Shown here: positions 1-18,924 of the stretch, in pieces
Layout: every line of letters starts with the position of its first letter
Position numbering within the stretch: position 1 is the stretch's first letter
From: Paramacrobiotus metropolitanus
Lineage: Eukaryota; Tardigrada; Eutardigrada; Parachela; Macrobiotidae
Direction: 5' to 3'
Length of the DNA stretch: 64,000 nucleotides
NCBI RefSeq assembly: GCF_019649055.1
Contig: NW_026570223.1
Span: 2,480,001-2,544,000, forward strand
Program-made: the position numbers and the translations under genes
Notes under the pieces: model-generated
The model's database searches: none
What the model was told of the DNA's origin: nothing
What the model saw: the letters and a program-made list of their open reading frames with translations, nothing else

Positions 1-2
1 GG

Positions 3-3000
3 CTTAGGTCGGCTAGCTTCCGTTGCTGCGACTTCCTCCGACGTGTCCATCGGCTCGTCTTCGCCTTCGAGTCCTGGTACCGGTACTTCGTCCATCGGTT
101 CGTCTTGGTGACTCGCCGGTGGGACTACCTGTGTCGGTTTGACAGGTTGTACCTTAGGCTTCTTGGCGGAGGGCGGCTTCCTCAGCTTGCGTTGCGCTTC
201 CGCTTCCTTCCGCTTGTGGAAGTCGTCTACGAAGGACTGAATCATGGCCGTCAAAGTTTGCAGCCGTTCCTGATTCTTTACCGACCACACTGTTGTTGGT
301 CGGAGGATAAATCGGGCTTCCTTGGCGTTGTTCTCCAAGTGTCCGAGATTGATATCGATCTGACAATATTGCGGACTCCGTTGGTCGGTTTCGTCCATCA
401 TCTTCCGAAGTTCGACGATGACAGCGTCCGCTCGCAGTAACTGTGTGTTAACTGCTTTCACCCATTCAAGGTCGGGTTTGGCTAGTGGGGCTGGAGGTGG
501 AAGTCGAACAGAATCGAAGCTCGGTTTCCGAGCCGACTGGATCTTTGTGATCCGAGACGGTCGACCTTCAGCCATGGCGTTTGTTGCCAGGTTGGTCGAT
601 TCCTGTTCTTTGTCCCGTTCCTTCTCTTCCTCATACTCGTTTACCCTTGTTTCCAACCATGAGGTCGTTCGGATTAGGTGTTGTCGAGTCCTCATCGTTT
701 GTGGGGCGTCCGGATGACATAGTCGTCGTATGAACCGGGCATTGTTTCCCCACGCCAAGATGTCTCGATCCAAATCGTTCGCTTCTTGGCTGTTATCTTC
801 ACAAAAGTTTCTGCGGGCCCTCATCTCTGTGATGAGTTCCGCTACTCTAGCCAATAGTTTGACTATATGTGGCGCGACCGTACTCGGCAGTTCATCCGTG
901 TCCGGTATGGCTTCCATGATTCGGGTCGTGGCCGGAGACATGGGCCGATCGGCCATTTCCATCGGTTTCGGTTGGGCCAAGCCTGCTGTTGAGGTCGGCT
1001 GGGATTGAATCCGAGCTGTTGTCGAAGTCGGCTGACTCGAGGTGTTCGGCTGTTGCGAACCGGGTGCGTGTTGTTCCGCTTTCCGTTGTTCCTCGAGTTC
1101 TTTTCGCCGTAAGATTTCGAGGTCGGCTTGCACATCTTGGATGTGCATCCGGGAGACTTTAATTTGATCTTCGATTGCCGTCCGGATGTTGCGGATGGTC
1201 GGATCTGTTCCGTCCATGTTATCAACTTGGCGTTGCAAGCTATCGGCAATCCTTTGTGTACGAGCCAACTTGTCGTTAAGGGCTTCACGCTTTTCTGCCA
1301 ATGTGGGCTCGAGCGGTTGTTGCGAAGCAGTCGGCTGCGGCTGAGTGGAAGTCGGCTGAACCCTTTGTGGGTTAGCCTCTAAAATTTTCCACAAGTCTTC
1401 GACCCGCCTTGAGCAGATGCTATACTGCTGGTCCAAGGCGTCGCGCATTTGCTTCTCCATGGCGTTATTCGGGTCGAGTTCCCGGAGTTGTCTTCCGAGC
1501 TTCTCCATGACGTCGACCGCTTCTCGGTACTGATTCTCGACTTCACCGATGTCGACTGCCTTTGGTTCGGCTGCCTCGGCGAAAGGGAGTTCGACGTCGA
1601 GTCCAGGTGATGGGACTGGAGAAGGTGTTTTCCTACGAGCTGGTACTGGCGCTCCCGCTTTGTTCGGGTTTGCCAAGTACTGCTTAACATGATCGATCAC
1701 CGACTGAAGTGCTTCAATTAGCCGGTCCCGGTTCGGACCTGGCGGTGGAATTCCCCATGAGCCTAGGGTATCGGCCCAATCCAACTCGAGTCGTAGTGCT
1801 CGGTCGATTCGGGTGAGGTCGGTTTCCTCTTGTTCCGTTAGGGTTCCACTAAGTTGGTGGTAAAAGATGTCGGCCAAATCCTGTCCGGCTTGGGTGATTA
1901 TGTCCAAGTTGCCGGGCAGGTTTTCCATTGGGGTCGTACCGACTAGAGTCATCACCGCTGTCGTAGTCGGTGGTGCTCGGCGAGGTGGAGACGGCGTGGC
2001 AATCCGAGTGTACTCGGGTTCCGCGTTGAGGATCTCTGTGATCCGCTCAACTACCGACCTAAGTTGTCGTTCGTCGACTTCGGTCGGTTCTTCCTTGCGG
2101 AGTAAATCGTCTGCCTTTTTCAAGTAGGCTGTCAGGTCGTTCATCATCTGCCGTGCCACTCTCAGAGTTTCGTCGTCCGTTGGCGTATTTTGTACGAACG
2201 TTCGCTGGAGGTCTTCCAGTAAGTCCCATCCATCGCTGATTATGGAGGACATCTTTTCCCTGCGGCTTTTCCGCATTGCCGAGTGCATCTCCGCCGCCGA
2301 TGAGGTCGACGGTAATGCGTCCAAGGTTTCTGTGTCAGAGTCCTGTGGTCGATGTTGACCCCGTGACTCTGGTCGGCGTTGGCTTCGGCTATATTCCCGC
2401 AGTTGGTTTATGCCATTCATTACGAATTGGAAATGAACTCCCGGTTCGACCGTGCCTGGTTGTATCAGGTTCCTCACGAGTTGTATGTGAGTGGCGAACT
2501 CGGAAGTTATCCTCTGCGCGTTCGGCTCGAGTCCTCTTTCGGCGCGTTGTTGAATCCGTTTAAGGATGTCTTCCGCCTCCTGTATAGCGGATCCGCCGTA
2601 GAGGATTATCCGGTCGGATGATGGAGATTTCGCCGTTACGACCTGTGTGGTCGTCGGCGTAGGCGATGATATCGGTGAAGTCACAACGGCATCCGGTAGT
2701 AACGTCGTCGGTTGGACGTTATCCGTCAGTAAGGTCGGGAGTTTCTCCGCCGAAATAGCCGTCTTCACCTGATCCATAACTGTTCGGAGTCGGTGTTTGT
2801 CCACCTCTGTGGTTGGCAAACCATACCGAGTGAGATCTTCAGTTAGCCCTATGTGGGCTATGAGATCGTTAATTTTCCGAACCGGGTCGAATTCGGTGGA
2901 ATCTCGGATTCCGTCGGCTATACGTCCGTAGATTCCTTGGAGAGCTTCTTTGCCGTCGAGGATGGTTTTCCAGACTTCTGTCGTCTGGTCATCCTGTCCG

Positions 3001-5468
3001 ATCTGAAATGCCATCGCATGGTACCGGGGCTGGGGAACCTGTTGTTCGGCTCCTCCTGTTTGGCTCTGGATTATCTGTCGAATCCTCCGGTAATGCATGT
3101 TTAGTCGAACGGCCTGATCATCTGTGGTTATGCCGCCGTCCTGTTCGGCAAGTCTGCGGGCGATTCGTAAACTTCGGTAAAGGTCGTTTACTAACCCTGC
3201 TCTGTTGGTTACGGCGACCAAGTCTCCACCTTGCGTCATCCTCACTTCGTCGAGGATTCGATCTCCCGTTCGGATAGCGGCCTGTACCTCTGCCATTGTG
3301 GGCATTTGTACATTTTCTGACCGATGTTCGGCTGCCTCCAGGTTCTGGTCGAGCTGTGGGTACAGGTTAGCTCGGTTCTGAGCGTTCCGCATCTTGTTCC
3401 GGATTGCGTTCAGTAATTCCAGATTTGTCGGCATTCCGGTCGTTAAGTAAGACCGAAGTCCTGACATGAAGTCGCGGATGGCCCTCCTATGGCTATCGAG
3501 GTTCATTGCCTCGGTGGTTCCTGCCTGTGTATCTTCCAGTACAGTGTCCATCCGACCTGTGACTATTGTAGCCATCCGTAGGAAATCCCGTAGCTCCTGC
3601 AATGTTGGGAGCGGTTCAACGGGTGGCCCTTGTGGGGTCTGCTGTGTCGGGCTCAGTTGGAAGACCGGAACTCGAATTGGTGACAGCCCTTGGCCTACGT
3701 TCCACGTCATCATGGGTGGGGGTTGGCTCGTTGGGACGACCGCTGGTTGGGTCGTCGTCGGCTGTAGGGCTCGGATTTCGTTCTCCTTCTCCGTCAACTT
3801 CTTAGTCCAATGCTCGATCAGTCCGGTATTACCCAGAACGGTTTCAGGGTAATATTCCTTGGTCGGATCGAGTGTAGCCAGGCGCTTCTTCACTTCGTTT
3901 ATTTCGTGAAGGTATTCACTGCGCTTTTGCGCTAAGGCGTCCAGCCGGGCTAGTCGGATTTCTTCATCAATCACCGCCTGTGTGGTCGGTGCTGATGTTC
4001 CCGACGAGCGCAAGTTTTGTTCTTGTGCTCGTATCCGCTTCTCCGCGTCGGCTGCGGTGTCGACTTGTTGATCCTCCTGTCGGCGTATTCTGCGGAATTC
4101 GGCCTCGTAGTTGTCCATGTTCTGAGGAAGGCGTGCCCATGACACTCTTAGCTTTACGGCCTCTTTCATGGCCTCCTCCTTCCGGAGACGTAGTTTTCCG
4201 ATCTCCAGTGAGGGTGTTCGGCCAGGCGTTTGTCGGCCTGCCGAAGTCGACGGAATTGGTTGAGACGTCGGCGTGACAACCTGTGTGGTTATCGCCGGGG
4301 GCCCTGGGTCAGGGTCTCCCAGTCTCTGGCCAACATGCCGAGCTACCGCTTGTTGGCAGATTCGGAGGGTTTCCTTTTCCTCGGCATGGAGCTTTAAGTT
4401 AGCATCGTTCAGATGGTTCTCGTAGTACGACAGTTCAGCCAACAACTTCGTTCTGTATGGAGTGTGGCTCGGATCCATCTGTGAGGTCTGCGTAAGTGCT
4501 TGGCTGATCGTGTCTATGTGAGCACGAGCCAATTTTGCCTGTTGACGCAATTCCTCTTCCGTCCTGCCGTTAGTGTTGATTTCTTGGACGACCGCAAAAG
4601 GTGGAGGCATCGACGTTACGACCTGTGTGGTCGTCGTCGAAACAGGCACTTGTTGGCTCTGTCCTCCGACTTGACTTCTGTGTTGGTTCAGCCGGTTCAT
4701 TAAATGGGTCGTCGCGTTCGGATCCATCCAGAGGTTCTGTTGTCCGGGTGGCCTAAGATGGGTCGGTGAGATCGGTGGCGTAAGCAATACTGGCCTTGGT
4801 GGCGAGATTGTGCCGTCCGGTCTGACCATACTGATCGTTGCGATTTGTGGGGGTGGCATTCCCGACGTTGGCGGGATTGATGCGAATCGCATTGCCGGTG
4901 GGCTGTATGGGAAACTACTCGGCGCCAATGTGGGCGTCGTGTAGATCGGGCCAGCCATGTTGGCCATTCCTGGCGCCATTGTGGGCACCATGTAAATCGT
5001 TACGGGCGTGTTCGCCATCCCCGGCGCCATTGTCGGTGTCGGGTAAGCTGCTCCGGTCATCATTGTTGATGCCGAGCTGGTCGGTCCGACTATTGTAGTC
5101 GGTACCGGCCACTGATAAGATGGCATTTGACCATGTGGGCCTGCTGCCGTTGTCGGAGTCGTCTGACTCGTTCCAGTTCCGAGGTTCCACAGACAGCCTG
5201 TGTTATCGACTGCTGTGTTCGGTGGCAGAATTTGTGGTGGTATCGTTCCACGTTGGGGCCCGACCGTAAGACCTGCTAACACATTAGCTGTTACGTTAGC
5301 TTGAGGGTTGTCTACCTGCGGTAATGGCGTCTGTGTGGCCGACCGCGAATTATCCGATCGCAATGTCGAGCGATGAGTCGGGTAGGGCTGTGATCGGTTC
5401 GATCCGTTACCACTACGTCCGCTGTTCGATCCGCTGGAAGGTGGGTCGTGTCGGCGACGACCTGACAT
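3..5468 (-). CDS. ORF3: giant coiled-coil/Pro-Thr-rich protein downstream of pol (partial)
   Basis: I read the minus frame codon by codon and found no stop from the ATG at 5468-5466 down to the window edge: at least 1,822 codons, open at the 3' end. An in-frame TGA at 5483-5481 lies just upstream, so the ATG is the first possible start. The N-terminal 250 residues are Pro/Thr/Met-rich with near-repeats of APGMAN. The rest alternates long charged helical stretches rich in Glu, Arg, Gln and Leu with Pro/Thr linkers such as PTTTQVV. I see no signal peptide, no membrane segment, no Cys pairs and no zinc finger. It starts 177 bp after the pol stop, the place of env in errantivirus-like elements, but does not look like an envelope protein. 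It shares its linker style with the gag N-terminal region. Alternatives are an accessory structural protein, or the N-terminal part of a second gag in a tandem copy. Confidence 0.8.
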   Translation of the reverse strand, partial: MSGRRRHDPPSSGSNSGRSGNGSNRSQPYPTHRSTLRSDNSRSATQTPLPQVDNPQANVTANVLAGLTVGPQRGTIPPQILPPNTAVDNTGCLWNLGTGTSQTTPTTAAGPHGQMPSYQWPVPTTIVGPTSSASTMMTGAAYPTPTMAPGMANTPVTIYMVPTMAPGMANMAGPIYTTPTLAPSSFPYSPPAMRFASIPPTSGMPPPQIATISMVRPDGTISPPRPVLLTPPISPTHLRPPGQQNLWMDPNATTHLMNRLNQHRSQVGGQSQQVPVSTTTTQVVTSMPPPFAVVQEINTNGRTEEELRQQAKLARAHIDTISQALTQTSQMDPSHTPYRTKLLAELSYYENHLNDANLKLHAEEKETLRICQQAVARHVGQRLGDPDPGPPAITTQVVTPTSQPIPSTSAGRQTPGRTPSLEIGKLRLRKEEAMKEAVKLRVSWARLPQNMDNYEAEFRRIRRQEDQQVDTAADAEKRIRAQEQNLRSSGTSAPTTQAVIDEEIRLARLDALAQKRSEYLHEINEVKKRLATLDPTKEYYPETVLGNTGLIEHWTKKLTEKENEIRALQPTTTQPAVVPTSQPPPMMTWNVGQGLSPIRVPVFQLSPTQQTPQGPPVEPLPTLQELRDFLRMATIVTGRMDTVLEDTQAGTTEAMNLDSHRRAIRDFMSGLRSYLTTGMPTNLELLNAIRNKMRNAQNRANLYPQLDQNLEAAEHRSENVQMPTMAEVQAAIRTGDRILDEVRMTQGGDLVAVTNRAGLVNDLYRSLRIARRLAEQDGGITTDDQAVRLNMHYRRIRQIIQSQTGGAEQQVPQPRYHAMAFQIGQDDQTTEVWKTILDGKEALQGIYGRIADGIRDSTEFDPVRKINDLIAHIGLTEDLTRYGLPTTEVDKHRLRTVMDQVKTAISAEKLPTLLTDNVQPTTLLPDAVVTSPISSPTPTTTQVVTAKSPSSDRIILYGGSAIQEAEDILKRIQQRAERGLEPNAQRITSEFATHIQLVRNLIQPGTVEPGVHFQFVMNGINQLREYSRSQRRPESRGQHRPQDSDTETLDALPSTSSAAEMHSAMRKSRREKMSSIISDGWDLLEDLQRTFVQNTPTDDETLRVARQMMNDLTAYLKKADDLLRKEEPTEVDERQLRSVVERITEILNAEPEYTRIATPSPPRRAPPTTTAVMTLVGTTPMENLPGNLDIITQAGQDLADIFYHQLSGTLTEQEETDLTRIDRALRLELDWADTLGSWGIPPPGPNRDRLIEALQSVIDHVKQYLANPNKAGAPVPARRKTPSPVPSPGLDVELPFAEAAEPKAVDIGEVENQYREAVDVMEKLGRQLRELDPNNAMEKQMRDALDQQYSICSRRVEDLWKILEANPQRVQPTSTQPQPTASQQPLEPTLAEKREALNDKLARTQRIADSLQRQVDNMDGTDPTIRNIRTAIEDQIKVSRMHIQDVQADLEILRRKELEEQRKAEQHAPGSQQPNTSSQPTSTTARIQSQPTSTAGLAQPKPMEMADRPMSPATTRIMEAIPDTDELPSTVAPHIVKLLARVAELITEMRARRNFCEDNSQEANDLDRDILAWGNNARFIRRLCHPDAPQTMRTRQHLIRTTSWLETRVNEYEEEKERDKEQESTNLATNAMAEGRPSRITKIQSARKPSFDSVRLPPPAPLAKPDLEWVKAVNTQLLRADAVIVELRKMMDETDQRSPQYCQIDINLGHLENNAKEARFILRPTTVWSVKNQERLQTLTAMIQSFVDDFHKRKEAEAQRKLRKPPSAKKPKVQPVKPTQVVPPASHQDEPMDEVPVPGLEGEDEPMDTSEEVAATEASRPK
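2631..2659 (-). repeat. Two-part ACACA hairpin in ORF3
   Basis: An inner 6-bp stem (2638-2643 with 2649-2654) closes a TGTGT loop. An outer 4-bp stem (2631-2634 with 2656-2659) stacks across a small internal loop. Confidence 0.8.
4611..4639 (-). repeat. Bulged 11-bp ACACA hairpin in ORF3
   Basis: The inner 6-bp arms 4618-4623 and 4629-4634 close TGTGT. A 2-nt bulge and an outer 5-bp stem (4611-4615 with 4635-4639) extend it. Confidence 0.85.
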
Positions 5469-5644
5469 TGTTGCTTGCTGTCAAGGAGAGGAAATACGGC
5501 GCGTTAGAATTCTACCAACTCCCGTACATTCAACTGAAGATGTTCCGGTCAACTGAAGAGATTCCATTTCGACACCAAAGGTCCATCTATACCTAGCTAC
5601 TGTTAAGCTATCTAAAACTTATTCTAAGTTTTACGGCTATGGCC
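5469..5644 (-). other. Short pol-ORF3 spacer
   Basis: These 176 bp separate the TAG ending the integrase frame (5645-5647) from the ATG of ORF3. No long frame crosses the stretch on the minus strand. It could hold a splice acceptor or internal start for a subgenomic ORF3 message, but I see no clear signal. Confidence 0.5.
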
Positions 5645-8600
5645 CTATGACTGAGTCTGTTCTGTTATGACTGCTGTTTTGGGTGTCTTGGATTTTGCTG
5701 TTTTGACTGGTTTCTCCGAGTCTGCCCGTCCTTCGGTTATTCGTTCGAGGATTTCCTTATGGGCTTCGTCTTCAGCAACTTCAGTTTCCTCCAGCATCTG
5801 TTGTGCTGTCAGCTTCGGTTTCTTAGTTGTCCCATACTTCCGTTTCGGCTTGGTCGGTTCGACTGCCTGGTCGGCTGCTACGACTTCCGTGGTCGGCGCC
5901 GATGTGCTAGGTAAGTCGACCTTCCGCTTTGTGTACTTCCTCTTAGGCTTGGTCGGTTGGACTGCCAAGTCGGCTACGGCGACCTCTGTGGTCGGTGCCG
6001 ACGAGTCGGTTTTCTTAACCGTCCTCTTCTTCCGAGCTGGCTTTGTCGCCGGCTTCGGTTCCTCTGTAGGTCGGTTGGCTGGCTGAACCGGTGCTTCCGA
6101 CTTGTTCTCCGACTCTTTCGGTTTCTCCGTGGTCGGCTGAGCTTTGTTCTCATTTTCGTCCAAGGTCGGTGCTGGTTCGGCAGCTATTACATCTTGCTTC
6201 TGAAGTTCTTTCAGTGCAGGTGTCTCGAAGTCGGTCGGTGGTTTCTTCCGAGGTCGACCTCGTTTCTTTTTCGCCGTCGGTTCGGTTTTGTCCGCTTCAT
6301 TAGTCGGATCCGAAGGTTTCTCGACGGTTTCTTCCGGTCTCTTCTTCGGCTTCCGAGTAGCTTTCCCTTCTGTCGGGTCGGCTGCCGGGCCTGTTGACCG
6401 AGTTGCTGGTCGACTTGTCTCGACTCGGCAATGTTTGACTCGGTCGACGGCTACCGTATCTTCACGTCCGTCTTCGCATCGGAGGAGTAAATTGTTGGGG
6501 CCAACGTATTTGATGACCGTCCAAACTCCGTCGTAGCGTTCCTTCCGGGTTGGGTCCTTGGTCGGGAATTCCACCGTTACCTTATCCCTCGGTTTGAAGG
6601 TCGGATTCGACTTCTTCTTGTTATAGTGCTCGGCATTTCGTTCGAATGCTTCATCAATGTTGATGCGGGCAATCTCATGCGAGCGCTGAAGTCGTTCTTT
6701 GATCCGTCGGATGTATTGTTCTTTATCCGTAAAGGTTTCTGGTGTATTCGTTCCGGCCACTACGTCCTGTGGCATGGTCATTTCTCGACCATACATCATG
6801 TAGAACGGTGAGAACTTAGTCGCGGCATGGACGGCTCGGTTCATTCCGCAGACGACGTAATCCAAGGCTCTGTGCCATCGGTGTCCGTCTTTTACATCGC
6901 AGAACTTCCTTATTCCATCCCATATCGTTTGCATTTGCCGTTCGACTTGTCCTTGTCCTTCCGGATGATGGGCAGTTCCAAGTGTGTGTTGGATGCCGAA
7001 GATCCGTGCGACCTTAGCGAACGTCTTCGCCGTAAAGTGAGTCCCTCTGTCCGAGTGGATGAAGGTCGGCATTCCGTACTTCAATAGGACATCTTTGACG
7101 AAAAACCTTTCGAATTCTCTCGCGGTGTTCGTTTTCGTTGCCCGGGCTACGGTGAACTTCGTCAGCTGGTCGGTTACCACTGCGATATACTGGTATCCCT
7201 TCGTCTCCGTCCGAGGAAGAGGACCTTTGAAGTCCGCGTATATGCGATACCAAGCTTCACCAACTTCCGTCTTTTGGAGTTTACCCGGTGGTAGGCATCG
7301 TTGCTTGTTTGTCATAATGCACTGTCGGCATTTCTCGATGTAAGCGATAGCGTCGCTATTCATGCGAGTCCAAAAATAACGCAACTTCAGTGCCTCGATC
7401 GTTTTCTCCCTGCCGAAATGGTTTCCGGTTTTTCGGTCGTGGAGCGATCGGATGATTTGATTCCGCATAAAGAGTGGTACGACGAAGCAACGTTCCAACT
7501 TTGTGTTGATCGTCTTCAGTCTGTACAATACTCCTTGCGCCATCTGGTAGTGTTCCAGATGTTTCGACTTGTGGTCGAGTTTCTCTGGATTTTCCAGTTC
7601 ATCGATGATTTTGCGTAGTTGCGGGTCTCGCAACTGCGCTTTCCGAAGTTCCGTGTTCGGTTCGGGTGGAGGTGGGAGTGTCTCTTCGACTTCCAACTCG
7701 TCATCCTCCGCCATATTGACGGTCCGAATGGTCGGTTCCGGTATCTCCGGTGCTGGGATGTTTATGACTCGGACCTCTGTGGTACTCAAGTCGTCCCAGT
7801 CGGTTATGACTTTGCATCCGGGGAGAACCGGTGGAAGGGCGATTTTTGGTGGGTTTGCCTTATCCCTCTTTTTCTTCTTGGAGGCGTTCGCCTTCAGACG
7901 TCTAAGAGTCCGTATTGTACAGACCTTAACTTCGTCCTTGAAGTCCTCGAAGTTGGGGACTTGGTCCAACTCTTCGTGTGGATCTTTGTCTTCACTACGT
8001 TCGAGTGGCCATCTCGATAGGGCGTCCGCATTGTCGCAGAAAACACCTGGCTTATACTCGATGGTTATGTCCCGTCCTTGTAAAGCCAGTGCCCATCTTG
8101 TTAGTCGAGGGTTGATGCCAGGTCGGTTCGACTCGCATCGGAGCAGGTTCTGCAATGCTCGATGATCCGTTCGTACGGTGAATGGTCCGTGGTCGATGAA
8201 GTGCTTGAATTTCTGCACGGCCCATACCACGGCCAAACATTCCCATTCGGTAACTCCATAGTTGAGTTCCGGTCCTCGTAGGACTCTGCTGGCGTAGGCG
8301 ATTGGATGATCGTCTTGTGAGATCACCGCGCCTAGTCCGGCTCCGCTTGCGTCACATTCAATGACGGTCTTCTTGGTCGGGTCGAACTTCGCCAGTACGG
8401 GTGCTTCTGTTAGCGCCTTCTTGATGTCGTTGAACTCAGCCGTGTGGGCTTCCGTCCAATCGAGTTTGATATTTTTATCCTTCCGGAGGAGCTCGTACAT
8501 TTTTGACGTTTTCTGAGCGTATCCTCGGATGAATTTCCGATAGTAGTTGGCCAGCCCGAGGAACGACCTAAGTTGCCGTTCAGTTCTCGGGCAGCTTTGT

Positions 8601-9418: not shown

Positions 9419-9421
9419 TCA
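9419..9421 (-). other. In-frame TGA between linker and RT
   Basis: TGA ends the linker segment. The same frame is open immediately upstream and downstream, and RT N-terminal sequence begins right after it. The codon context is CCA TGA ACA, not a known leaky UGA-CUA context. It could arise from CGA by one C-to-T change. Confidence 0.85.
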
Positions 9422-10894
9422 TGGAGTCGATGATTCTCCGTCGCTCCTCCTGGGATTCCTCGTCTTCCTTTCTACCTCAGCCGTGTTGACTCGTGCTTCT
9501 TCGACCTTCTGGTCGTCCGTCATCATCGTGAATGCTTCAGCTCGACCCATCGGTGCACCTTTGCGTAAGGTGACTTCCCGATGAGTGTGGTTTGCCACCA
9601 TGACGGTGAATCGTTTCCCGTCATGCTTGGTTACGCCGTCCATGAATTCGACTCCGTCTCGTTTGGGGTCGGATTCACCTAGGTACATAAGTTTTTGGTC
9701 CGTGGATACCGGTACGTCCAGGACGACTTCTACCATGGTTACGGCTCGAGGAATGAGTTTGACCTTCCGTTGAGATCGAACTCCTGTTGCCTCGAAAACT
9801 TCGAATTGGGGTTTTGGCTTTACTTCCCGAGTAGGGGGCCATGTCTTCGCCACTTTGTGTGGGAGTTCCCATTCGACGAATTCATTGTTGATTTCTGGTT
9901 CATAGACATCAGCATATTGCATGTGGCCAAGTCGTACGCCTTTCTTCAACACCTTCGTTTGGTGAGTCGTATTCTGGATGTTTATCCAGGCCGTGTCGAC
10001 TTGGGGTCGGATGTCGATCTTGGCTTCGATTGGCCGAATAGGTCGGACTACCCGTTGTAGGGTAGAGAAGTAAATTCGTCTTCTCGGGTCCATTGGTTTG
10101 GCCGTCCGTACCTTGATCGAACATGTTGACCATGGTGGAAGAGAGACTCGTTCGCTGTTAAAGACAACTTGTCGGTCTAACGCTTTCGTCTCTACGTAAG
10201 GATCCAACTTCAAGTGGTGGACTTCTGGGCATTTGTTGTCCAGGTCCAGCTCGTCAATCGTCTTGACTTTGGCGACTCGTGCCTTCCATGTGTTGAAATG
10301 CTCCGACTTCTGTTGGTCGGTCAAGTTAGCCAAGGTCGGTTGTTCGGTTGACAATTGCTGAATGACGATTGTTGGAGGTCGGAAATCATCTTGTTCCGGT
10401 TTACCTCCTCCGAATTCCCACAAAGCCTTGAGTTGGTTGAGTTCCTCCTGTTGTTCGGAGTCGACCGGCTTGGGCTGTTCAGTTCGTTCCGGTTGTTCGT
10501 CTATGAATTCTGTGTGAACTATAGACCGCAATGCTGTAGTTAGCCGGACGTCGAAGGTCGGTTCTTCGTCCTCCGATGACGAATCGTCCGAGTCGTTTAT
10601 GCTCGGTTTATCCGTCTTACAGTGCCGGACTGACAGATCGAATTCTTCGTCGTCATCTTCCTCGGATTCTTCCGAAGGTCGATTATCGGAGTCCGTGTCC
10701 GCCGATTCGCTCGTACTCTGTATGTCCGAGTCGTCCGACTGATAATCTTCGAATTCGACTTCCGATCCGTTTTCGGGGTCGACTTCTGGCATGTCTTCGA
10801 ATCCGACCTTTGTGGTCGGTTCGAGTTGGTCGACTTTATCCGTCGGTTGGGTCGGTCGACTTGCTCCGTCCTGATTCTCAAGGTCGGCTGGCTG
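9422..10894 (-). CDS. Protease-RT linker segment of pol
   Basis: The frame is open between a TAG (10897-10895) and a TGA (9421-9419). An ATG at 10792 begins a 457-residue ORF, and the 34 codons before it are also open. The N-terminal 120 residues are strongly acidic, with many Asp, Glu and Ser. Two beta-rich modules follow, each ending in a Leu-x-Lys-Gly signature: VLKKGVRLGHMQY and TLRKGAPMGRAEAF. Modules of this style occur between protease and RT in many gypsy-type pol proteins. No catalytic residues were recognised. It lies in the same frame as the segments before and after it, so a separate protein and a readthrough product are both possible. Confidence 0.7.
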
Positions 10895-10897
10895 CTA
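10895..10897 (-). other. In-frame TAG in a CARYYA readthrough context
   Basis: The sense strand reads TAG CAG CCA. The six bases after the stop match the CAR-YYA context known from tobamovirus-type UAG readthrough. The frame is open for more than 260 codons upstream and 490 downstream. One C-to-T change from CAG would also explain it. Confidence 0.85.
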
Positions 10898-11710
10898 GCC
10901 TATGTTGCTCAGCCATCGGATGCTCGACGGTTGGGGCTTCCGACAGCGGTCTACCTTCCGTTCCTGTTGCGGAGGCGACGGTGACGACGGTCTGTCGTCC
11001 GACCAAGTTAGGTCGTGATGAGCTTTTATTGCTCGTACTACCTCGTCAATATTGTCTTGACAGATAGCACACCGATAAGGTTGATCGGTTTCCTCCGGGA
11101 CTACGTTTCCTTGAGGCTTCGCCGTGCTACTCGCAAACTTCACGTTGGTTGGAGTATGCGGCATAAGAGGTGGTAACGGTCTAGGAACTTGCCGCGTTAT
11201 GGCGGTGTCCTCGCCGTACCGTTGCCAGAATGCAGTCGTCGACGATTCTCCGTGCAACCTTACTCGCTGCATGTAGGCAAAAAGTTGAGAGCCTAGTTCC
11301 TGGCACGGCATTTCGAGCGGGGGTGGTATAGGAAGTCCGTATTCCATATACTGTCGATGGATCGGAATTCGTTCGTCTTCCCATTCCCATGCTTCGTCCT
11401 CTATGTCGTTCATGAGGGCGATTACCGGTTCACACGTTTGTTGTGCGTCCAGTATCTGGTCGGGGGTTATTGCTCCGTTCTGTTGCAGAGTGGTCACTAT
11501 CTCCGACGTCCGTTGGTCGAGGAAGTGTCGAACTCCCGAGAACCAAGTTCGGTACTTTTGTCGTACTTCCTCTCGGTTCATGGCGTCCGCGTCAGCGGAT
11601 GCCTCTGGTATCGGGATAGACTTTAGTACAGTCCTCGCCGGTCGTAATGTACCGTCGCGTATCCGTTTCTGATAGTGCTCTATCACGTGTCCGATGTCAG
11701 ATAGACTGCA
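10898..11710 (-). CDS. Unrecognised pol segment after the protease
   Basis: The frame is open between two in-frame TAG codons (11713-11711 and 10897-10895), about 270 codons. A GTG at 11686 begins a 263-residue ORF, but there is no early ATG, which argues that translation arrives from upstream. The N-terminal half is helical and charged, and a Pro-rich middle follows. Near the C-terminus is a short CAICQDN cluster with nearby His residues that hints at a zinc site without completing a known pattern. I do not recognise the domain. Its position is directly after the protease and before the acidic linker. Confidence 0.6.
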
Positions 11711-11713
11711 CTA
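11711..11713 (-). other. In-frame TAG after the protease domain
   Basis: The sense context is ACC TAG TGC AGT. The stop falls about 15 residues after the last conserved protease block, and the frame stays open on both sides. The downstream bases do not match the CARYYA readthrough context. Confidence 0.85.
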
Positions 11714-13078
11714 GGTAGGAATCGGTGTCAGAATGAAGGTGAATTTCGAATGCAGGTAGTCGCATCCGAGTAGCACTGGGATGTCCGCTTCGGTCGGCTG
11801 GACGTGGAAAGTGTGATGGCTGGTAAAGCCCTGCATTGTGACAGGTGCCGTACAGCAATGAGACACTACAAAGGCGACTTGTCCGCCTACACCGAGTATT
11901 TTGGTGTAGTGTCCGAGAGGTTGGATTGTTAAGCCGTTCCTCTCGCAAAACCGTTGTTCGATGAGCGAGGTTTCCGCTCCGGTATCCAACATCGCCAGTG
12001 TGGGCGTGGATCCGACTTGGATTTCATGTGTCCAAGCTCGAACTGTCTTCGGTTTCTTGTGTGTTCCCTTTTCAAAGGTAACTTCCCGCACCGTTGGTTT
12101 GATGGGGATTAACGACACCGGTCCGTGGTCGGCTGGCTGTTGAATTGAACCTTGTGTAGGTTCAATTCCGACTTCAACCACTTCCTGTACCTCGGGTCGG
12201 TTCATGACTCCGTCCTTCGGTATTTCGGCGGTTCCGAACCGTTGTGCCTGTGACAATATCCGTTCCTCCATTGAGACTTCTGTTGGCCTCAATGTCGACC
12301 ACATATGGTCGAGGTTGAGGAATGTCCGAGAGCCAGCTACCGTTCTGGTCGACTGCTCCTTTGACTGGAAGAGGTCCGCTTCTCCCGGCCGAGAGTAAAC
12401 GGGTACCTGTGCTTCCAATGGGACGGTTTCCCATTGCTCGAATCCTTCCGGTTCTTCGGTAAGGTCGATTGCTGCCATTGTTGCAGCGTATCTATCCGTT
12501 GCGCGTCCGGATGATACATTGGGGAAGTTTCTGTTGCCCCGGTGCGTGGATCGGCGTCCCGGTCCTCCACGTCTTGGGCCTCGTCTGGGCTGCTCGGTTG
12601 AGTTTGTCCTCACCGGCAATCCGGTCCAACTTCCGTGGCCGAGCCGTACTACGTCACTTTGTGTGACGGACGGTGCAGTCGCATTGTTTGCGCTGCTTAG
12701 GTCGGGCAATTCCTGCGTTCCGACCTCCGACGTTCCAGCGCCAAGTTGATGCGCTGGGTCGGTTGCCTCGAGTGCCTGTTGCATCCCGGGCCAAGCTTCG
12801 ACGGTGCCATTGTTGGCGTACACGCCGAGCTGAGCGGCTAACTTCCGAGCCGTTTCCGCCTCCTTTGTGGAGGTCGACATCGCTTTTGCGAAATCCTCCT
12901 CGGAGCTGTTTTCGTTCAGTCCGAGTAGTTGGAGGATGGTTGCTACCTGTTGATAGCCTTCCTCGATCGTCGTAGGAAAGTTCAATTCGTTCCGGTAATT
13001 AAGCGATTGGTTAGTCGGATTATCCTTGTCCGGTGGTTCGGTCGGATGTTGGAGGTCGAATGAGTCACCGGAGCTCAT
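11714..13078 (-). CDS. Aspartic protease-containing pol segment
   Basis: This 455-residue ORF starts with ATG at 13078, overlapping the preceding stop as ATGA. The first 300 residues are low-complexity, with Ser/Thr/Glu and an Arg/Gly-rich patch. The retropepsin-like domain is at the C-terminus: the active-site block LDTGAETSLI is followed about 70 residues later by IPVLLGCDYL, matching the second conserved block (I-L-G-D type) of gypsy proteases. Retropepsins work as dimers and cleave the polyprotein. The frame is the one used by all downstream pol segments, so the protease would be the first processed pol product. The 11-bp hairpin at 12142-12168 lies inside this ORF. Confidence 0.9.
12142..12168 (-). 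repeat. Perfect 11-bp hairpin with ACACA loop
   Basis: Arms 12142-12152 and 12158-12168 are perfectly complementary around the pentaloop TGTGT (ACACA in the element RNA). It is the longest uninterrupted stem of the dispersed hairpin family and lies within the protease ORF. Confidence 0.9.
13075..13078 (-). promoter_or_regulatory. ATGA stop/start overlap between gag-NC and pol
   Basis: The TGA ending the nucleocapsid frame (13077-13075) overlaps the ATG of the protease ORF (13078-13076). Overlaps of this kind are used for termination-reinitiation in some retroelements. A -1 frameshift is an alternative way to join the two frames. Confidence 0.75.
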
Positions 13079-13842
13079 CGACCTTGGGCGTTTCCCGGGG
13101 AGTTACTCCGAGCTGGCCCGTTGTTGGGCGACGCCAAGCCGAAAGGCTGATGTGGCGGTAACGGTTGCCGCCGTTCCGGAGATCCCTGTTGACCTCCACC
13201 GCTATTTCTGCGGTTGCCACCCGACCCATTTCCTGGGCCGGTTTGCCGGTTTCCGTTACCGGCGCCGCCCGAACCTCCACCTTGTTGGCGTTGGCGCGGG
13301 GGCGGCACGACCAGTGCATAGTTCGGGTTGGCCGATCCCAACGGTCCTCCCGTCTGGTATCGCGTATGCCAATCCTCGAACCAACGGCGATTCGGGTTGT
13401 CCTGTACCCGAGTGCCGATGAACGCACATCGTGCTTGGTCGTGATTGCTGAACTTGCAGAAGTTGCAAGTAAAGCTGTCCGCTAGCGACCATTGGAGGAA
13501 CAGTTGTTCCATCCGGTCCACGTAGGTCGTGTATTGCCGAGCACTTTGTTGTGCCTGGGGAGGTCGGTTCCCTTGTTGGTTGCCGCCCCCGCCGCGGTTA
13601 GGAAAGTTGCCGCGACCGCGTTTTCCGCCGCCACGTCCTTTTCCGCGACCGAAACCTCCGCCGCCGTATCCCTGTGTGGGAGGTGGGCCGTATGCGGAGT
13701 ATCCCTGGTTCGGGTTCTGTCCGTAACCAAAACCTATGTTGTTTTGGTTACCACCCGAGCCATAACCTGGGCCTCCGTAGTTGTTAACGGGGGTTCCAAT
13801 TCCAGGTGCCGGGGGATTCAGGTTTGCTGCCGCCGCGCTCGC
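13075..13842 (-). CDS. Nucleocapsid-like segment with CCHC zinc knuckle
   Basis: The frame continues directly after the gag TAA and stays open to TGA at 13077-13075. The first 100 residues are rich in Gly, Asn, Arg and Tyr with RGG-like basic runs, typical of RNA-binding tails. A single zinc knuckle CNFCKFSNHDQARC follows with exact C-x2-C-x4-H-x4-C spacing, near 13,460. The remaining 120 residues are again Gly/Asn/Arg/Pro-rich. No ATG lies ahead of the basic region; the first start-like codon is GTG at 13521. This favours synthesis as a gag extension by readthrough. The role by family is genome RNA binding and packaging. Confidence 0.85.
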   Translation of the reverse strand, partial: ASAAAANLNPPAPGIGTPVNNYGGPGYGSGGNQNNIGFGYGQNPNQGYSAYGPPPTQGYGGGGFGRGKGRGGGKRGRGNFPNRGGGGNQQGNRPPQAQQSARQYTTYVDRMEQLFLQWSLADSFTCNFCKFSNHDQARCAFIGTRVQDNPNRRWFEDWHTRYQTGGPLGSANPNYALVVPPPRQRQQGGGSGGAGNGNRQTGPGNGSGGNRRNSGGGQQGSPERRQPLPPHQPFGLASPNNGPARSNSPGNAQGR

Positions 13843-13845
13843 TTA
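13843..13845 (-). other. In-frame TAA between capsid and nucleocapsid
   Basis: The sense context is CAG ACT TAA GCG AGC. Gag capsid lies upstream and the zinc-knuckle region downstream in the same frame with no other stop. It is explicable as CAA to TAA, or as a programmed boundary. Confidence 0.85.
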
Positions 13846-16800
13846 AGTCTGTTGCTGGACTGGTGCTTGTTGCACCGGTGGCGTCGGCGCCGGACTCCGT
13901 GGTCCGTACTGTGCCGTTGGAGTTTGGTATCCCGGCATCATATGCGGCTGATATCCGGTCTGTTGCGGTATCGCCGGAGGTGGAGCCGGGACAGGTGCAG
14001 GTGTTGCTGCCCGGACTCTGGCGTAGTCGCCGTCGCGTTGTCTGCGCACCTCATACATCTCTTTGCCATTGACGAAGCTCCGTAAGTAGTCGCGGAACTC
14101 GATTGGTGTCGCTGGCATCCTGATTTCCAGGGCTTCCCGTAGTTTGGGTTCGTGGACGTTCTCCTTGAGATGGTACATTATTATTTGATCGGTAATCGTG
14201 GGGACTTGGGACTTCATGAACATCATTGCGTCGTAGTATTGTTCCGGCGTTTCTTCGCCGAAACGAAATATCCGTTTGTTAATTCGGGATATCATGTTCA
14301 CTTCTTTGTTTTTGTCCGCAAATCGTTGCTCGAATTTGGTCAGCCATATGTTGACTGGCCATCCGCCGAGTGGTTCTCCGGCGGCTTCGAGGGTGTGCCA
14401 TTCCTCCGCTTGGCCCTCTAGTCGGGCTACCAAGTCGGACATGAAAGTCTGATCGTCCTCGTACCATTGTTGGGCTTGACGATACAGGCTTCGGATCTGT
14501 TTAAGCCACCCATGAAGTTTGGTGTGGTCTCCATCGAACGGCGGTAAGGGTTGCCGACGTCCGTGAGATATCGCTCGTACCAAAGCAATATGTGCCGGGT
14601 CCTGTGCCGGAGGAATCAGGTGTGCCCCCGGCGCAGCTTGTTGTGCGACCGGGGCGGGTGGCGGGTTGGCATATGGTACGTGACCTTGTTGGTCTTCGTA
14701 TGCCCCCTGTTGATAGGCTTCTTCGTCGTAGCCGTCGTATTCGTCCTGTTGCGGATACCGAGCCTGGGCCTGGTCTTCATGACGAGGCCGTTGTGGCTGT
14801 CCTCCATACTGTTGTGGAGGGGGCGCTCGATTTTGTCTCGGCGCCTGCGGATAGAATCCACTCGGTTGGTCGTAGACTCTTCCGTGCCGGTTGGGCTGTG
14901 TTCCCTGAGCCGGCATCCGACCTTGTATTAGTCGGTGTGGGGGCACCCGACCTTGTTGGTCGGAACTGTCTTCTCCGTTCTGTCCGTCCTGCCGCTGGTC
15001 GGTCGTGTTAAATGACCGAGCCCTCGCTCGTTCAAAGTCGAACGGCGGGTTCTGGCGGAGGGAGTTCGGATTGGAGTTCGTCCTCGGTGGGCGATATGCT
15101 TCTATGCCCGGTCTCAATGGCGGGACTGGGAGACGTTCGGCGTCTATTGCTTGGTCTCCTCTCACGTTAGGTACCGGCGCGTACGTTGTTGTCCGCGTCG
15201 TGTACGAGGCGCTAGTATGCGCTCCGGCAGACGTCGTTGTCGCCACGTTCGACGTTGGCACTCGCGGTGCCGCGGTCGACGTATTGTGTTCCGGTTCCGG
15301 AGCAGCCGGAACTGTTGGTGGTTGTGGGATTGTTCCCACGCTTGGGTCGGTCGTTAAGACTCCGACGAAGTGGGAGGTGTTATTCTCCTTCTTCGCCATC
15401 TCCTGGGTCGGACTAATTCCCCACAGGATGTCACTGATTGTTCGTGACGGCTGTTGATCCTGTGCCATGGACGTCCGGTATGAAGGAGGTTCAACCCGGT
15501 TTCTTTCCCGGTATGAGGGAAGTTCGACCTGGCTTTGTTCCAGGTGTTTCTTCTCCTCCCTCAGACACCGTGTTTCCGTGTCCATCTCATCCATTTGCCG
15601 CATCAACTCTGTGAGATTGCGGGCGGCTTGTTCGCCGAAGTCGTATAGTTCGACTTCGCGAGCTTCCAGGTAAACGATGCGGCTGTGTTGCGCCTCGTTT
15701 ACCTTCCGAGCTTCGTTCAGGCTGTACTCTAATTGAGCTCGGAGCTTCTGTTCCTCCTTGAGGACTTGGTTCAGTCCATGAACCTGGTCGGCTAGCTGAG
15801 CGTTTGCTTCCACCAGGTCGACATCGGCTGTCCTTTGGTTAGGAAAGCCCATGTCCCGAGCGTTCGCGTCGATGAATCGACGGCCCGTTCTGACGAGGAG
15901 GAGTTCCATTTCCGACTCGAGTTCGTCGGTTCGTTGCGTTAGACGGTCGATCTCGTTATCGGCCTTCTTGAGTTCCACCACGTATCTATCGACTTCGTTT
16001 CGATAGACCTCGGCTTCTTCATTGGCCTGGTTGAGTTGCTGGTGGAACGCTCCTGCTACCTGTTCCGACTCGACCAGTGCGGTCTGAACGTCGGCCAGGT
16101 CTTTCTGTGCTTCTTCGAGCGCTTTGTGCGCCTCGTCAAGCTCCTTTTTGATTTCGAAGACGGCTGCTGTTGACCGTTCCAACATGCCAGTAAGTATGGC
16201 AATTTGGTCGTCTTCGTATCGACACGGTAAGTCGGCTCGCTTCAATATGGCGTTGAGCCGGTCGATTTCCCGTTGTTGGGTGGCGATGCCCTTGTTGGCA
16301 TCGGCCATGTCTCGTTCCCATTTCCTCCGTTCGAGCTTATGGGTGTCCTCCGAGTTTCGGAGGGATCCTTCCGCCGAGTCGACGATTTTGTCCGCCAAAA
16401 CGATCTGTGTGATCAGTTTATGGCATCTCGCTCGGAGTAGGTCGAGGTCGTTGATCTTCTCGGGCGGTGTTGCCGCGATCCACTTCTTAGCCGTGTATTC
16501 GAGTGCACTGGCTTGGTATCCGAGGTTCTCCTTATCGGACTTGGGTGGTGTCGTAAAAAATCCGTCCGCACTACTTGGTCTTGACGCATTTGTTGCGTCG
16601 AAGACTTCGTTGGTCGGTGACGGAGTACTGCCAAGTTCGCTGGTTCCGAACATTGGTGGTGACAACCTTTGGTTCAGGTCGACAGGTCGACTTTGTGTCG
16701 CCTTAGTCGACTTCACCGTTTGTTGAGCTTCGGTTGCACGGGTCGACTCGCGTCCGGTTGGCGAAGGTCGGCTCAACGGTGAGATTATCCGTTCGTTCGG

Positions 16801-17724
16801 TGCCGGCATGTTAGTCGGCGATCCGGCTGGGTGAGGGCCGCTTTGTAGCGGTACTTCGGAATCTGTCGTTCCTGCCGGTGATTTGGTCGACTGGACGGCC
16901 GCATCCGACTTTGTGTCGGTTGGTTGCCGTTCCAGGCTAGTCGGTTGCTTGTTGCCGACTTCCTTTTCTCCAACCTCTGTGGTCGGCATTTGTTGTCCGA
17001 CCTTTGGGTTTGGCGAAATCCTTCCGACCTGTGTGGTCGGTTGGACGTTACCGACTTCTGTTGTCGGTTTCTCCATTCCGTTCGAGGTCGGTTGTCCGAC
17101 CTCTTTTGTTAGTGGTAGGTCGACCTTCGGTTGGTCGGCTTCCTTTGCTGAGGGCTGGTCGACCGTTTGTTGGTCGGCTTCCCTAGTCGGTGATTGTTTA
17201 CCGACTTCTTTGGTCGGAGATTTTCGCTCGACCTGTGTGGTCAGCGATTTCCGCCCGACTTGGTTAGTCGGTATGTCCCTGTTGGACGAGGTCGGCTTCG
17301 GCACTTCTTCCGTCCTGTTGGGTGATTGCCGTCCGAGCTCGGTGGCTTTTGTAGCCGTTACCGAGTCGGGAGCTCTGTGTGAGCTCGACTGTTGGTCGGC
17401 ATGAGACAATGTGGTCTCTGCCTGCAGCTGTTCCACATCCCCCCCGGTCGGGTGGGACGGGGCTGCTACGTCAGCTGGGGCTTCCAGGAATGTTTTATCC
17501 CTGGCGTCCTCAAAACTGTCATCCGAAGTTGGATTCGAGTCAGCGAGGAGAATCCGTTCGTTACGTCTCTCCTTTGCTTCGGCCGACTTGGTCGAGTCGG
17601 TTGAGGACGGCTGAGTTTTATCCTGACCGGCGTACCGGAGTGAGTACTTTCCGGTCATATTCGCACGCCGAGAATAGTCCGTGTTGAACTTTCTCGCGTA
17701 CTCGTTTTCTCGAGGATTCGACAT
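13843..17724 (-). CDS. gag: Gag: coiled-coil plus capsid-like region
   Basis: ATG at 17724 opens a 1,293-residue frame that ends in TAA at 13843. Residues 1-400 are hydrophilic with many copies of the word PTTxVG (for example PTTQVG and PTTEVG). Residues about 430-760 are predicted by eye to be a long coiled coil, with heptads of Leu, Glu, Arg and Gln. A Pro/Gln/Arg-rich hinge follows. The retrotransposon-gag (capsid) homology is at about residues 1080-1240, with LPPFDGDHTKLHGWLKQI, a Trp-rich block and LRSFVNGKEMYEVRR. A usual gypsy gag has 300-500 residues, so the N-terminal extension is exceptional. The start is supported by the structured leader with no other ATG-led frame. It should form the particle shell; the coiled coil may add a scaffold. 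Confidence 0.9.
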   Translation of the reverse strand: MSNPRENEYARKFNTDYSRRANMTGKYSLRYAGQDKTQPSSTDSTKSAEAKERRNERILLADSNPTSDDSFEDARDKTFLEAPADVAAPSHPTGGDVEQLQAETTLSHADQQSSSHRAPDSVTATKATELGRQSPNRTEEVPKPTSSNRDIPTNQVGRKSLTTQVERKSPTKEVGKQSPTREADQQTVDQPSAKEADQPKVDLPLTKEVGQPTSNGMEKPTTEVGNVQPTTQVGRISPNPKVGQQMPTTEVGEKEVGNKQPTSLERQPTDTKSDAAVQSTKSPAGTTDSEVPLQSGPHPAGSPTNMPAPNERIISPLSRPSPTGRESTRATEAQQTVKSTKATQSRPVDLNQRLSPPMFGTSELGSTPSPTNEVFDATNASRPSSADGFFTTPPKSDKENLGYQASALEYTAKKWIAATPPEKINDLDLLRARCHKLITQIVLADKIVDSAEGSLRNSEDTHKLERRKWERDMADANKGIATQQREIDRLNAILKRADLPCRYEDDQIAILTGMLERSTAAVFEIKKELDEAHKALEEAQKDLADVQTALVESEQVAGAFHQQLNQANEEAEVYRNEVDRYVVELKKADNEIDRLTQRTDELESEMELLLVRTGRRFIDANARDMGFPNQRTADVDLVEANAQLADQVHGLNQVLKEEQKLRAQLEYSLNEARKVNEAQHSRIVYLEAREVELYDFGEQAARNLTELMRQMDEMDTETRCLREEKKHLEQSQVELPSYRERNRVEPPSYRTSMAQDQQPSRTISDILWGISPTQEMAKKENNTSHFVGVLTTDPSVGTIPQPPTVPAAPEPEHNTSTAAPRVPTSNVATTTSAGAHTSASYTTRTTTYAPVPNVRGDQAIDAERLPVPPLRPGIEAYRPPRTNSNPNSLRQNPPFDFERARARSFNTTDQRQDGQNGEDSSDQQGRVPPHRLIQGRMPAQGTQPNRHGRVYDQPSGFYPQAPRQNRAPPPQQYGGQPQRPRHEDQAQARYPQQDEYDGYDEEAYQQGAYEDQQGHVPYANPPPAPVAQQAAPGAHLIPPAQDPAHIALVRAISHGRRQPLPPFDGDHTKLHGWLKQIRSLYRQAQQWYEDDQTFMSDLVARLEGQAEEWHTLEAAGEPLGGWPVNIWLTKFEQRFADKNKEVNMISRINKRIFRFGEETPEQYYDAMMFMKSQVPTITDQIIMYHLKENVHEPKLREALEIRMPATPIEFRDYLRSFVNGKEMYEVRRQRDGDYARVRAATPAPVPAPPPAIPQQTGYQPHMMPGYQTPTAQYGPRSPAPTPPVQQAPVQQQT
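17364..17390 (-). repeat. Bulged 10-bp ACACA hairpin in gag
   Basis: The inner arms are GAGCTC on both sides (17370-17375, 17381-17386) around TGTGT. The outer AGTC/GACT pairing (17364-17367, 17387-17390) is separated by a 2-nt bulge. Its codon phase differs from that of most other members. Confidence 0.85.
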
Positions 17725-17787
17725 TGTTGTCGAATCAGGTCGGCTCTGGTGGAGCCTTAAAGGTTTTATTAGTTATAAAAGAGAAAA

Positions 17788-17817
17788 TCGAACAATCCTC
17801 TGTGTGAGGATGTTCGA
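17788..17817 (-). repeat. Leader ACACA hairpin, 12 bp with one bulge
   Basis: The inner arms 17795-17800 and 17806-17811 close TGTGT at 17801-17805. The outer arms 17788-17793 and 17812-17817 extend the stem after a single bulged base. It lies about 65 nt upstream of the gag ATG, outside any ORF, so coding constraint cannot explain it. It is a good candidate for a regulatory or packaging element. Confidence 0.85.
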
Positions 17818-18720
17818 TGAAATCAGGAACGTCTTTTGGTTCAGGAACTTCCGAGTGTCGGGAACGTCCGGTGAGATGTTGTTGTTGTTGTTGATGTGTC
17901 TGTTGGTGACTCAGTACACAGGGTTAATATGCAGTACTATGGTACGGTACAGTACGTTATAGTAGTACGGTGTAGTACGTCCTATACTACTGTGCTGACC
18001 AGTGTGACGTAACAGGTTAAGTGGTCTTGCACTTCTGCCTACGTCACAGAATGCGAGCCGCGTGCAAAATTTACAAAAAACGATGAATCACGCCTATGTT
18101 AGGCTATGGGAACTTTCCCCTGCACTCTGATTGGCTGCTTCTTAAGTACTGATAAGCGGTCGTTATGACGTCACAAGGAAGTTCAAGAATTTTCGCGCTA
18201 TTTCCCGCGAGAAAAACAAATTATTTTTGCTCGGCTAGAAAGTTTATCTAGTCGGATTTTTGAGTTTTTAACCGTTAGAAATTAGTTTTATTAATTAAGA
18301 AAATTTCCTGGTGGTCGAAACACCGTTAGAAATCAAAAACAAGAAAGTTTCCGACCTGTTGCCGGTTAGCCTTTGTCTAACTGTCTAGACAGGTTCGTTG
18401 ACCTAGCAGGTCGGTTCTCGACCAAAAGCAAAATTCCGAGTCGGTTTCTCCGTCGGAAATTACTTTTTAACCGTTAAAAAGTTAAATTTTACGGATAGAA
18501 ATCGTTTTCTACCGTTAGAAAGTGAAATGCCGACCTAGTTGCGGCTAAAATCGACCTATAACCGTGACTTTACTAGTGTCGGTGTCGGTGTCGGTTCCGG
18601 TCGATTTCCTCCGTCCGAGGTCGGAAATCCGTCGTTTCCGAATGAAATTCCGCCGTTAAAGTTGCGGGTCGGTGTTCAAACCGATGGTCCCCGTATTATT
18701 GGAGTAATCCGTTCGCGCTG

Positions 18721-18924
18721 CAGACTCTCGTTCGAGTCTGATCCGTCAGTTGGGAGAATTCCGTGCTGTCGGGAATGTGCTCTTCAGTGTGGAAGAGACA
18801 GAGAAACTGTGCTCACCAGCTGGGTGAGAATCACTTCAGTGATCCTCGTTTTCCTCAGCTGTAAGACGGCAAGATCAGTCCGATCAAAGTCAGAGCAGAG
18901 ATTACTTCAGTAATCAATCTGACA
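18721..18924. repeat. Cluster of six to seven short hairpins in the leader
   Basis: Arms that I can pair are 18721-18727 with 18734-18740 (7 bp), 18780-18785 with 18792-18797 (6 bp), 18812-18817 with 18823-18828 (6 bp) and 18830-18834 with 18839-18843 (5 bp, TTCA loop). Others are 18873-18876 with 18882-18885 (4 bp) and 18900-18905 with 18910-18915 (6 bp, TTCA loop, extended by 4 bp after a bulge). They follow each other over 200 bp upstream of gag. Confidence 0.75.

Follow-up and report, generated by a model that had tools for sequence, protein, structure and literature searches.

Dispersed packaging signals similar to those of satellite tobacco necrosis virus (STNV) have been proposed for MS2, HBV and enteroviruses. 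In STNV itself, selection in vitro (SELEX) with the coat protein yielded the loop ACAA, and the motif AXXA, carried in loops of 4 to 6 nt and indifferent to the stem, was described in ca. 30 copies (PMC3593212, accessible part). Such signals are a matter of dispute: the evidence in STNV was obtained by selection in vitro (PMC3593212), and later the packaging signals proposed for STNV-1 showed no discernible role in vivo (PMC6475782, accessible part). Among LTR retrotransposons, Burro of planarians is a gypsy-like element of ca. 30 kb that contains very long reading frames and an internal region of up to 25 kb (PMC6431247, accessible part). Cer1 of Caenorhabditis elegans encodes CERV, a large protein that has no known relatives in retroviruses; it colocalises with the nuclear genomic RNA, whose export requires it (PMC10309623, accessible part). 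The RNA of yeast Ty3 has structured regions along its length, and sequences for annealing of the tRNA, for dimerisation and for packaging have been described at its 5' end (PMC11381356, accessible part). The accessible parts of these three reports mention neither dispersed hairpins for Burro, nor a dispersed hairpin code for Cer1, nor a series of shared-loop hairpins for Ty3. Among open-licence PMC articles on LTR elements that are giant or from tardigrades, or on shared-loop hairpins of retroelements, no title or abstract opening described such a signal.

Here, we describe dispersed hairpins in a tardigrade element of this kind. The stretch analyzed (the window) comprises 64,000 nucleotides of the Paramacrobiotus metropolitanus genome (C3:2480001-2544000 in the 169.8-Mb assembly), and the minus strand of its positions 1-19462 carries the first two thirds, counted from the 5' end, of a Ty3/gypsy LTR element. 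As in STNV, many short stem-loops lie along one RNA, with a conserved loop and a free stem (PMC3593212, accessible part). The differences are that the carrier is a 30-kb retroelement, that the signal is evident from the natural sequence compared with shuffles and is accompanied by covariation, that related families differ in loop class, and that the binding protein is a putative one. Burro resembles the tardigrade element in being gypsy-like, of similar size (30,010 bp here) and in having giant reading frames (ORF3, with its two open pieces of 1826 aa and 1400 aa), but it belongs to a different host phylum and its internal region is shorter, up to 25 kb versus ca. 29.1 kb (PMC6431247, accessible part). 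The MATH, BIR, ankyrin and Env-like domains gave no match at an E value of ≤0.1 when the nine open frames of our element were compared with Pfam.

Paired LTRs with TG...CA ends, a target-site duplication and a primer-binding site (PBS) after the 5' LTR are the marks of LTR retrotransposons. The two LTRs were 100% identical (441/441 bp), the 30,010 bp were flanked by a 4-bp target-site duplication (TAAG), and the 5' LTR was followed by TGG, the start of a putative PBS. Given the identical LTRs and the duplication, the insertion looks recent. Pfam searches of the separate open frames gave the order protease, reverse transcriptase (RT), RNase H and integrase, which is that of Ty3/gypsy. The parts of the element are as follows.

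1..19462, minus strand: Ty3/gypsy element, window part, with Pfam RT, RNase H, integrase and protease; runs left to C3:2469453
19022..19462, minus strand: 5' LTR, TG...CA; the 441-bp match takes in one base past the CA end
L059 2453-2893: partner LTR, identical to window 19022-19462 over 441 bp
13846..17772, minus strand: Gag-like open frame, 1309 aa; two homologs found, both in P. metropolitanus
13078..13842, minus strand: Gly/Arg-rich nucleocapsid-like piece with one CCHC knuckle
11714..13102, minus strand: open frame with aspartic protease (Pfam)
9422..10894, minus strand: open frame, no Pfam match above the cut-off
5648..9418, minus strand: RT, RNase H and integrase open frame (Pfam)
3..5480, minus strand: ORF3, first 1826 aa; no Pfam match above the cut-off, no transmembrane-like stretch (hydropathy)
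L043 5800-9999, minus strand: ORF3-adjoining open frame, 1400 aa, across the window edge; no Pfam match above the cut-off

L043 is the next 10 kb of the element beyond the left edge of the window, and if the two open pieces of ORF3 are one frame, its product exceeds 3,000 aa. Since it had neither a Pfam match above the cut-off nor a transmembrane-like stretch, it is no evident Env. Protein searches, in which only the candidates sharing most words were scored, gave a single homolog of ORF3 (P0121, in the same species; query, residues 700-1300), and the two homologs of the Gag-like frame listed above (query, residues 400-900). For the RT-integrase frame, at least 39 matching places were obtained, with 37 candidates scored. 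A tblastn search of viral contigs found no relative. A fourth open frame of 713 aa, without Pfam matches, lies downstream of ORF3 (L043 3395-5533, minus strand). The frames of the window copy are parted by stops (minus strand: 13843 TAA, 11711 TAG, 10895 TAG and 9419 TGA), which may reflect decay, readthrough or assembly error; many other copies had zero stops inside the RT-integrase match, unlike the window copy with its identical LTRs.

Along the sense strand of this element we found short hairpins with the loop ACANA (TNTGT on the plus strand). Between positions 442 and 17817, where the original prediction had 25 sites with at least four closing pairs, ten of them with stems of at least 6 bp, 28 of 148 TNTGT words on the plus strand had at least four Watson-Crick closing pairs, and 11 of these 28 had stems of ≥6 bp. 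By the same rule, 30 of the 157 sense ACANA words in the whole element part of the window (1-19462) were hairpin loops, as were 15 of 84 in L043. The sites in the window are listed below.

438..450, minus strand: ACANA hairpin, 4 bp
539..553, minus strand: ACANA hairpin, 5 bp
820..836, minus strand: ACANA hairpin, 6 bp
1200..1212, minus strand: ACANA hairpin, 4 bp
1359..1373, minus strand: ACANA hairpin, 5 bp, outside main codon phase
2030..2044, minus strand: ACANA hairpin, 5 bp
2638..2654, minus strand: ACANA hairpin, 6 bp
2844..2860, minus strand: ACANA hairpin, 6 bp, outside main codon phase
4278..4290, minus strand: ACANA hairpin, 4 bp; compensatory changes among copies
4618..4634, minus strand: ACANA hairpin, 6 bp; compensatory changes among copies
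5980..5994, minus strand: ACANA hairpin, 5 bp; compensatory changes among copies
7496..7508, minus strand: ACANA hairpin, 4 bp
9296..9308, minus strand: ACANA hairpin, 4 bp
9850..9862, minus strand: ACANA hairpin, 4 bp, outside main codon phase
10803..10819, minus strand: ACANA hairpin, 6 bp
12142..12168, minus strand: ACANA hairpin, 11 bp
12652..12668, minus strand: ACANA hairpin, 6 bp, outside main codon phase
12859..12873, minus strand: ACANA hairpin, 5 bp
13669..13681, minus strand: ACANA hairpin, 4 bp
16119..16131, minus strand: ACANA hairpin, 4 bp, outside main codon phase
16402..16414, minus strand: ACANA hairpin, 4 bp
16583..16599, minus strand: ACANA hairpin, 6 bp; hairpin in 4/12 copies, 7-nt loop in two of these
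16688..16700, minus strand: ACANA hairpin, 4 bp, outside main codon phase
16905..16919, minus strand: ACANA hairpin, 5 bp
17024..17040, minus strand: ACANA hairpin, 6 bp; hairpin in 11/13 aligned copies
17230..17242, minus strand: ACANA hairpin, 4 bp; hairpin in 6/13 copies
17344..17356, minus strand: ACANA hairpin, 4 bp; hairpin in 5/13 copies, compensatory changes
17370..17386, minus strand: ACANA hairpin, 6 bp, outside main codon phase; hairpin in 9/12 copies
17795..17811, minus strand: leader (noncoding) ACANA hairpin, 6 bp; 9/9 copies holding the site, compensatory changes
19416..19428, minus strand: LTR ACANA hairpin, 4 bp; present in the partner LTR (L059) too

Noncoding hairpins were present in the leader, in the LTRs and in a stretch toward the 3' end that lacks a long reading frame, and the RT-integrase frame was sparse in hairpins (3 in 3,771 bases). 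Within window 1-18000, 29 of 151 ACANA words lay in hairpins (28 within coding frames, the other in the leader), compared with a mean of 0.55 and a maximum of 4 in 300 exact dinucleotide shuffles of the same stretch. Shuffling synonymous codons within its seven in-frame pieces gave a mean of 0.97 and a maximum of 5 in 1,000 shuffles, versus the 28 coding hairpins observed, and for stems of ≥6 bp, a mean of 0.19 and a maximum of 2, versus 10 observed. Chance is thus ruled out as the origin of the ACANA hairpins by both kinds of shuffle, and this minus-strand scan confirmed that the observation is real and stronger than first claimed. On the antisense strand of the element, no ACANA word was in a hairpin (0/14 in window 1-18000 and 0/9 in L043, 0/23 in total), and in the rest of the window, both strands taken together, only 5 of 555 were.

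As predicted, about three quarters of the coding hairpins (21 of 28) shared one codon phase, and many of them encode TTxV. Look-alike palindromes could therefore have been by-products of repeats at the protein level (TT[QEK]V peptides) or of DNA duplication, and 29 neighborhood matches at an E value of ≤1e-3 among 990 hairpin pairs, several of them between overlapping neighborhoods, would be in keeping with this; the peptides TT[QEKD]V number four in the Gag frame and five in the window's part of ORF3. However, codon shuffles keep the peptides and yet give about one hairpin, seven coding hairpins were in other phases (codon shuffle mean, 0.40; maximum, 3), 40 of 45 stems were distinct, and compensatory changes were found among copies (see below). 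Hairpins confined neither to one phase nor to coding DNA contradict a peptide or duplication origin, to which we give almost no credence, and the earlier argument that protein constraint is insufficient stands.

The loop, like the pairing, showed signs of selection. Mean pairing at distances 3 to 8 from the loop center was 0.450 for ACANA and 0.316 for ACANT, where 0.241 is expected by chance, and since ACANC (0.239) and ACANG (0.256) were near the chance value, the last A of ACANA matters. The closing pairs of the 45 hairpins were C-G in 37, A-T in 5 and T-A in 3, and never G-C. Folding energies, calculated with 75 nt of context on each side, predicted a mean pair probability of ≥0.5 for all 44 hairpins tested (median, 0.99), versus 57 of 132 control hairpins with other 5-nt loops and the same stem rule (medians of 0.12, n = 79, and 0.23, n = 53). 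ACANA may be only the clearest of several loop classes in the window element: other 7-nt loops numbered 68 versus 24.0 in codon shuffles, and 9-nt loops, 49 versus 22.3, an excess that is partly nested in the 5-nt hairpins. Loops of 4 nt with the sequence ACAA were also in excess (window 1-18000, minus strand, 5 versus 0.53 in codon shuffles). Perhaps the 4-, 7- and 9-nt excesses are further forms of the same signal. Against Rfam, window 1-20000 reached the gathering threshold of 50 bits with no family; its two weak matches scored 24.5 and 23.8 bits.

We then compared the stems among copies of the element. The leader hairpin (17795-17811) was kept in 9 of the 9 copies holding the site, in a 7-nt version in two copies of family D (see below). 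Among its six distinct rows, two-sided changes affected two adjacent pairs, in three rows each, and a third pair, in one row; 94% of the cells were paired. None of 500 shuffles reached its covariation score of 0.467, although rows that are related can score above shuffles of this kind. Two other measures, the count of pairs with two-sided changes (matched by 76/500) and that of further pair types (498/500), were not above the shuffles. In the pol, gag and 3' zones, 29 of 38 two-sided stem changes, scored between reference and copy, still paired, versus 12 of 46 when the partners were slid by one or two positions, in counts where the copies are not independent events. The loci numbered 25 in the pol, 10 in the gag and 7 in the 3' zone; family D was left out, as were L046 and L052, which had no match to the element, and gapped or >50% different segments were dropped. 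One-sided changes broke a pair in 59 cases and gave G-U in 30, and some hairpin sites were missing or had altered loops in some copies. The covarying stems that had been claimed thus found support in the compensatory changes, both in the zones and in the leader, while the conservation of individual sites did not hold throughout, with one-sided breaks and losses as well.

Loop class is a family property, judging by the sequences compared. A tree of pol pieces gave ((A,C),D),E, with P0002 outside, at moderate support and with long outgroups. Family A is that of the window element (ACANA, 30/157 and 15/84), and ACANA was also the loop of family C (31/281). In family D we found no ACANA five-loops (0/237), but 32 of 84 [AC]ACANAA words were seven-loops (17 distinct), and L053, the sole D copy matching the 3' zone, had five hairpins, all with CACAGAA loops and on five different stems. 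At site 17034, where by-eye reading gives PTTQVG in family A and PTTEVG in a D copy, codon differences turn the 5-nt loop into a 7-nt one, a change that the peptide explanation does not predict. Family E used CAAYA (13/53, 8 distinct; antisense, 0/5) rather than ACANA (2/47) in two homologous 6-kb stretches, the ones in which CAAYA had been noticed; an independent 3-kb stretch had 2/10 CAAYA, reached by 0 of 1,000 Markov shuffles, and 1/11 ACANA. The 5 kb of the P0002 family had none of the three classes (ACANA, 0/38; [AC]ACANAA, 0/8; CAAYA, 0/20), from which it follows that a loop code is no general need of such elements; some odd loop lengths there were above Markov shuffles, with no common loop. 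Shuffles in these comparisons among families were first-order Markov rather than exact dinucleotide. The single ACANA class of the original prediction, which covered about two thirds of the element, holds for family A and has to be widened by the further classes of D and E.

Inverted repeats are also dyads in DNA, and a dimeric DNA-binding protein might have been their target. Nevertheless, the loop is asymmetric and strand specific (0/23 in reverse orientation), the half-sites vary (40 distinct stems among 45), and in family D the loop-adjacent position was unpaired in all 15 distinct sites with four outer pairs, which makes DNA-level sites very improbable. Instead, a reader that acts on the loop in the RNA is suggested by the strand specificity, by the noncoding sites, by the covariation and by the specificity of the loop. 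The repeated RNA-level signal that had been predicted is borne out by these features, by the compensatory changes and predicted folding, and by loops that are specific to families.

We propose that, in the genomic RNA of this giant Ty3/gypsy element, the hairpins together form a recognition code that is repeated at dispersed sites. Each site would be a short hairpin, usually closed by C-G, with a stem free to vary and a loop fixed within the family. A protein encoded by the element, either Gag/nucleocapsid (NC) or the large ORF3 product, would recognize the loop at ca. 45 places per RNA, a number that suits a reader multimerising along 30 kb, and only the family's own RNA would be compacted and packaged into its own particles. 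Such a code, read by an element-encoded protein that selects, coats and packages its own RNA, has in our judgment an even chance of being correct. An RNA code in natural sequence is indicated alike by the shuffles, the covariation, the noncoding sites and the different loops found in sister families. It thereby becomes possible to test by what means a retroelement distinguishes its own RNA from the RNA of close relatives, and how an RNA of 30 kb is handled.

The nature of the reader was considered in the light of the family differences. Many host proteins read hairpins in a loop-specific manner, and with the element-encoded reader so far putative, a tardigrade RNA-binding protein acting in localization, stability or translation could also use these sites. 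One host reader does not predict different loops in co-resident families, however, and host sequence in the window had only 5 of 555 ACANA words in hairpins, so that we regard this as unlikely. Since families within one genome differ in their loop, we favor a reader encoded by the element. The zinc-knuckle region, compared in four other copies, was very similar in A and D despite their different loop classes, and was more divergent in one of the two copies from family C, whose loop class is that of A. Given that the knuckle region does not track loop class, the CCHC knuckle alone is no obvious reader in these copies, and as a covarying reader it was rejected. The zinc-knuckle or host reader first envisaged is thus weakened on both counts, the host version fitting the differing loops less well, while the reader may lie elsewhere in Gag or be the product of ORF3.

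Nuclear export with protection is our second choice after packaging. A nuclear element protein, perhaps the ORF3 product, might coat and export unspliced RNA without any direct packaging role. Cer1 needs the large CERV for export of its genomic RNA (PMC10309623, accessible part), the ORF3 product is large, with no Pfam match above the cut-off and no transmembrane-like stretch, and hairpins are spread along the whole RNA. As an LTR element with a large novel protein, our element resembles Cer1, whose CERV acts on its own genomic RNA (PMC10309623, accessible part), the likeness of ORF3 to CERV being one of size and novelty; we see this alternative as possible but doubtful. Extending the preferred reading, packaging of own RNA through a loop code, we suggest tentatively, and with rather less confidence than in the code itself, that co-resident giant retroelements may use different loop codes as self-identity tags, each family's protein coating only its own class and barring rivals from its particles. 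Families would then diverge by switching loop class at many sites, either by loss of the closing pair, from 5 to 7 nt, or between ACANA and CAAYA.

Host gene exons in the window include one of a Lyase_1 family gene (argininosuccinate-lyase-like by eye; 20476-20874, plus strand), ca. 1 kb beyond the 5' LTR, and one of a sulfate permease family gene (35526-36293, plus strand).
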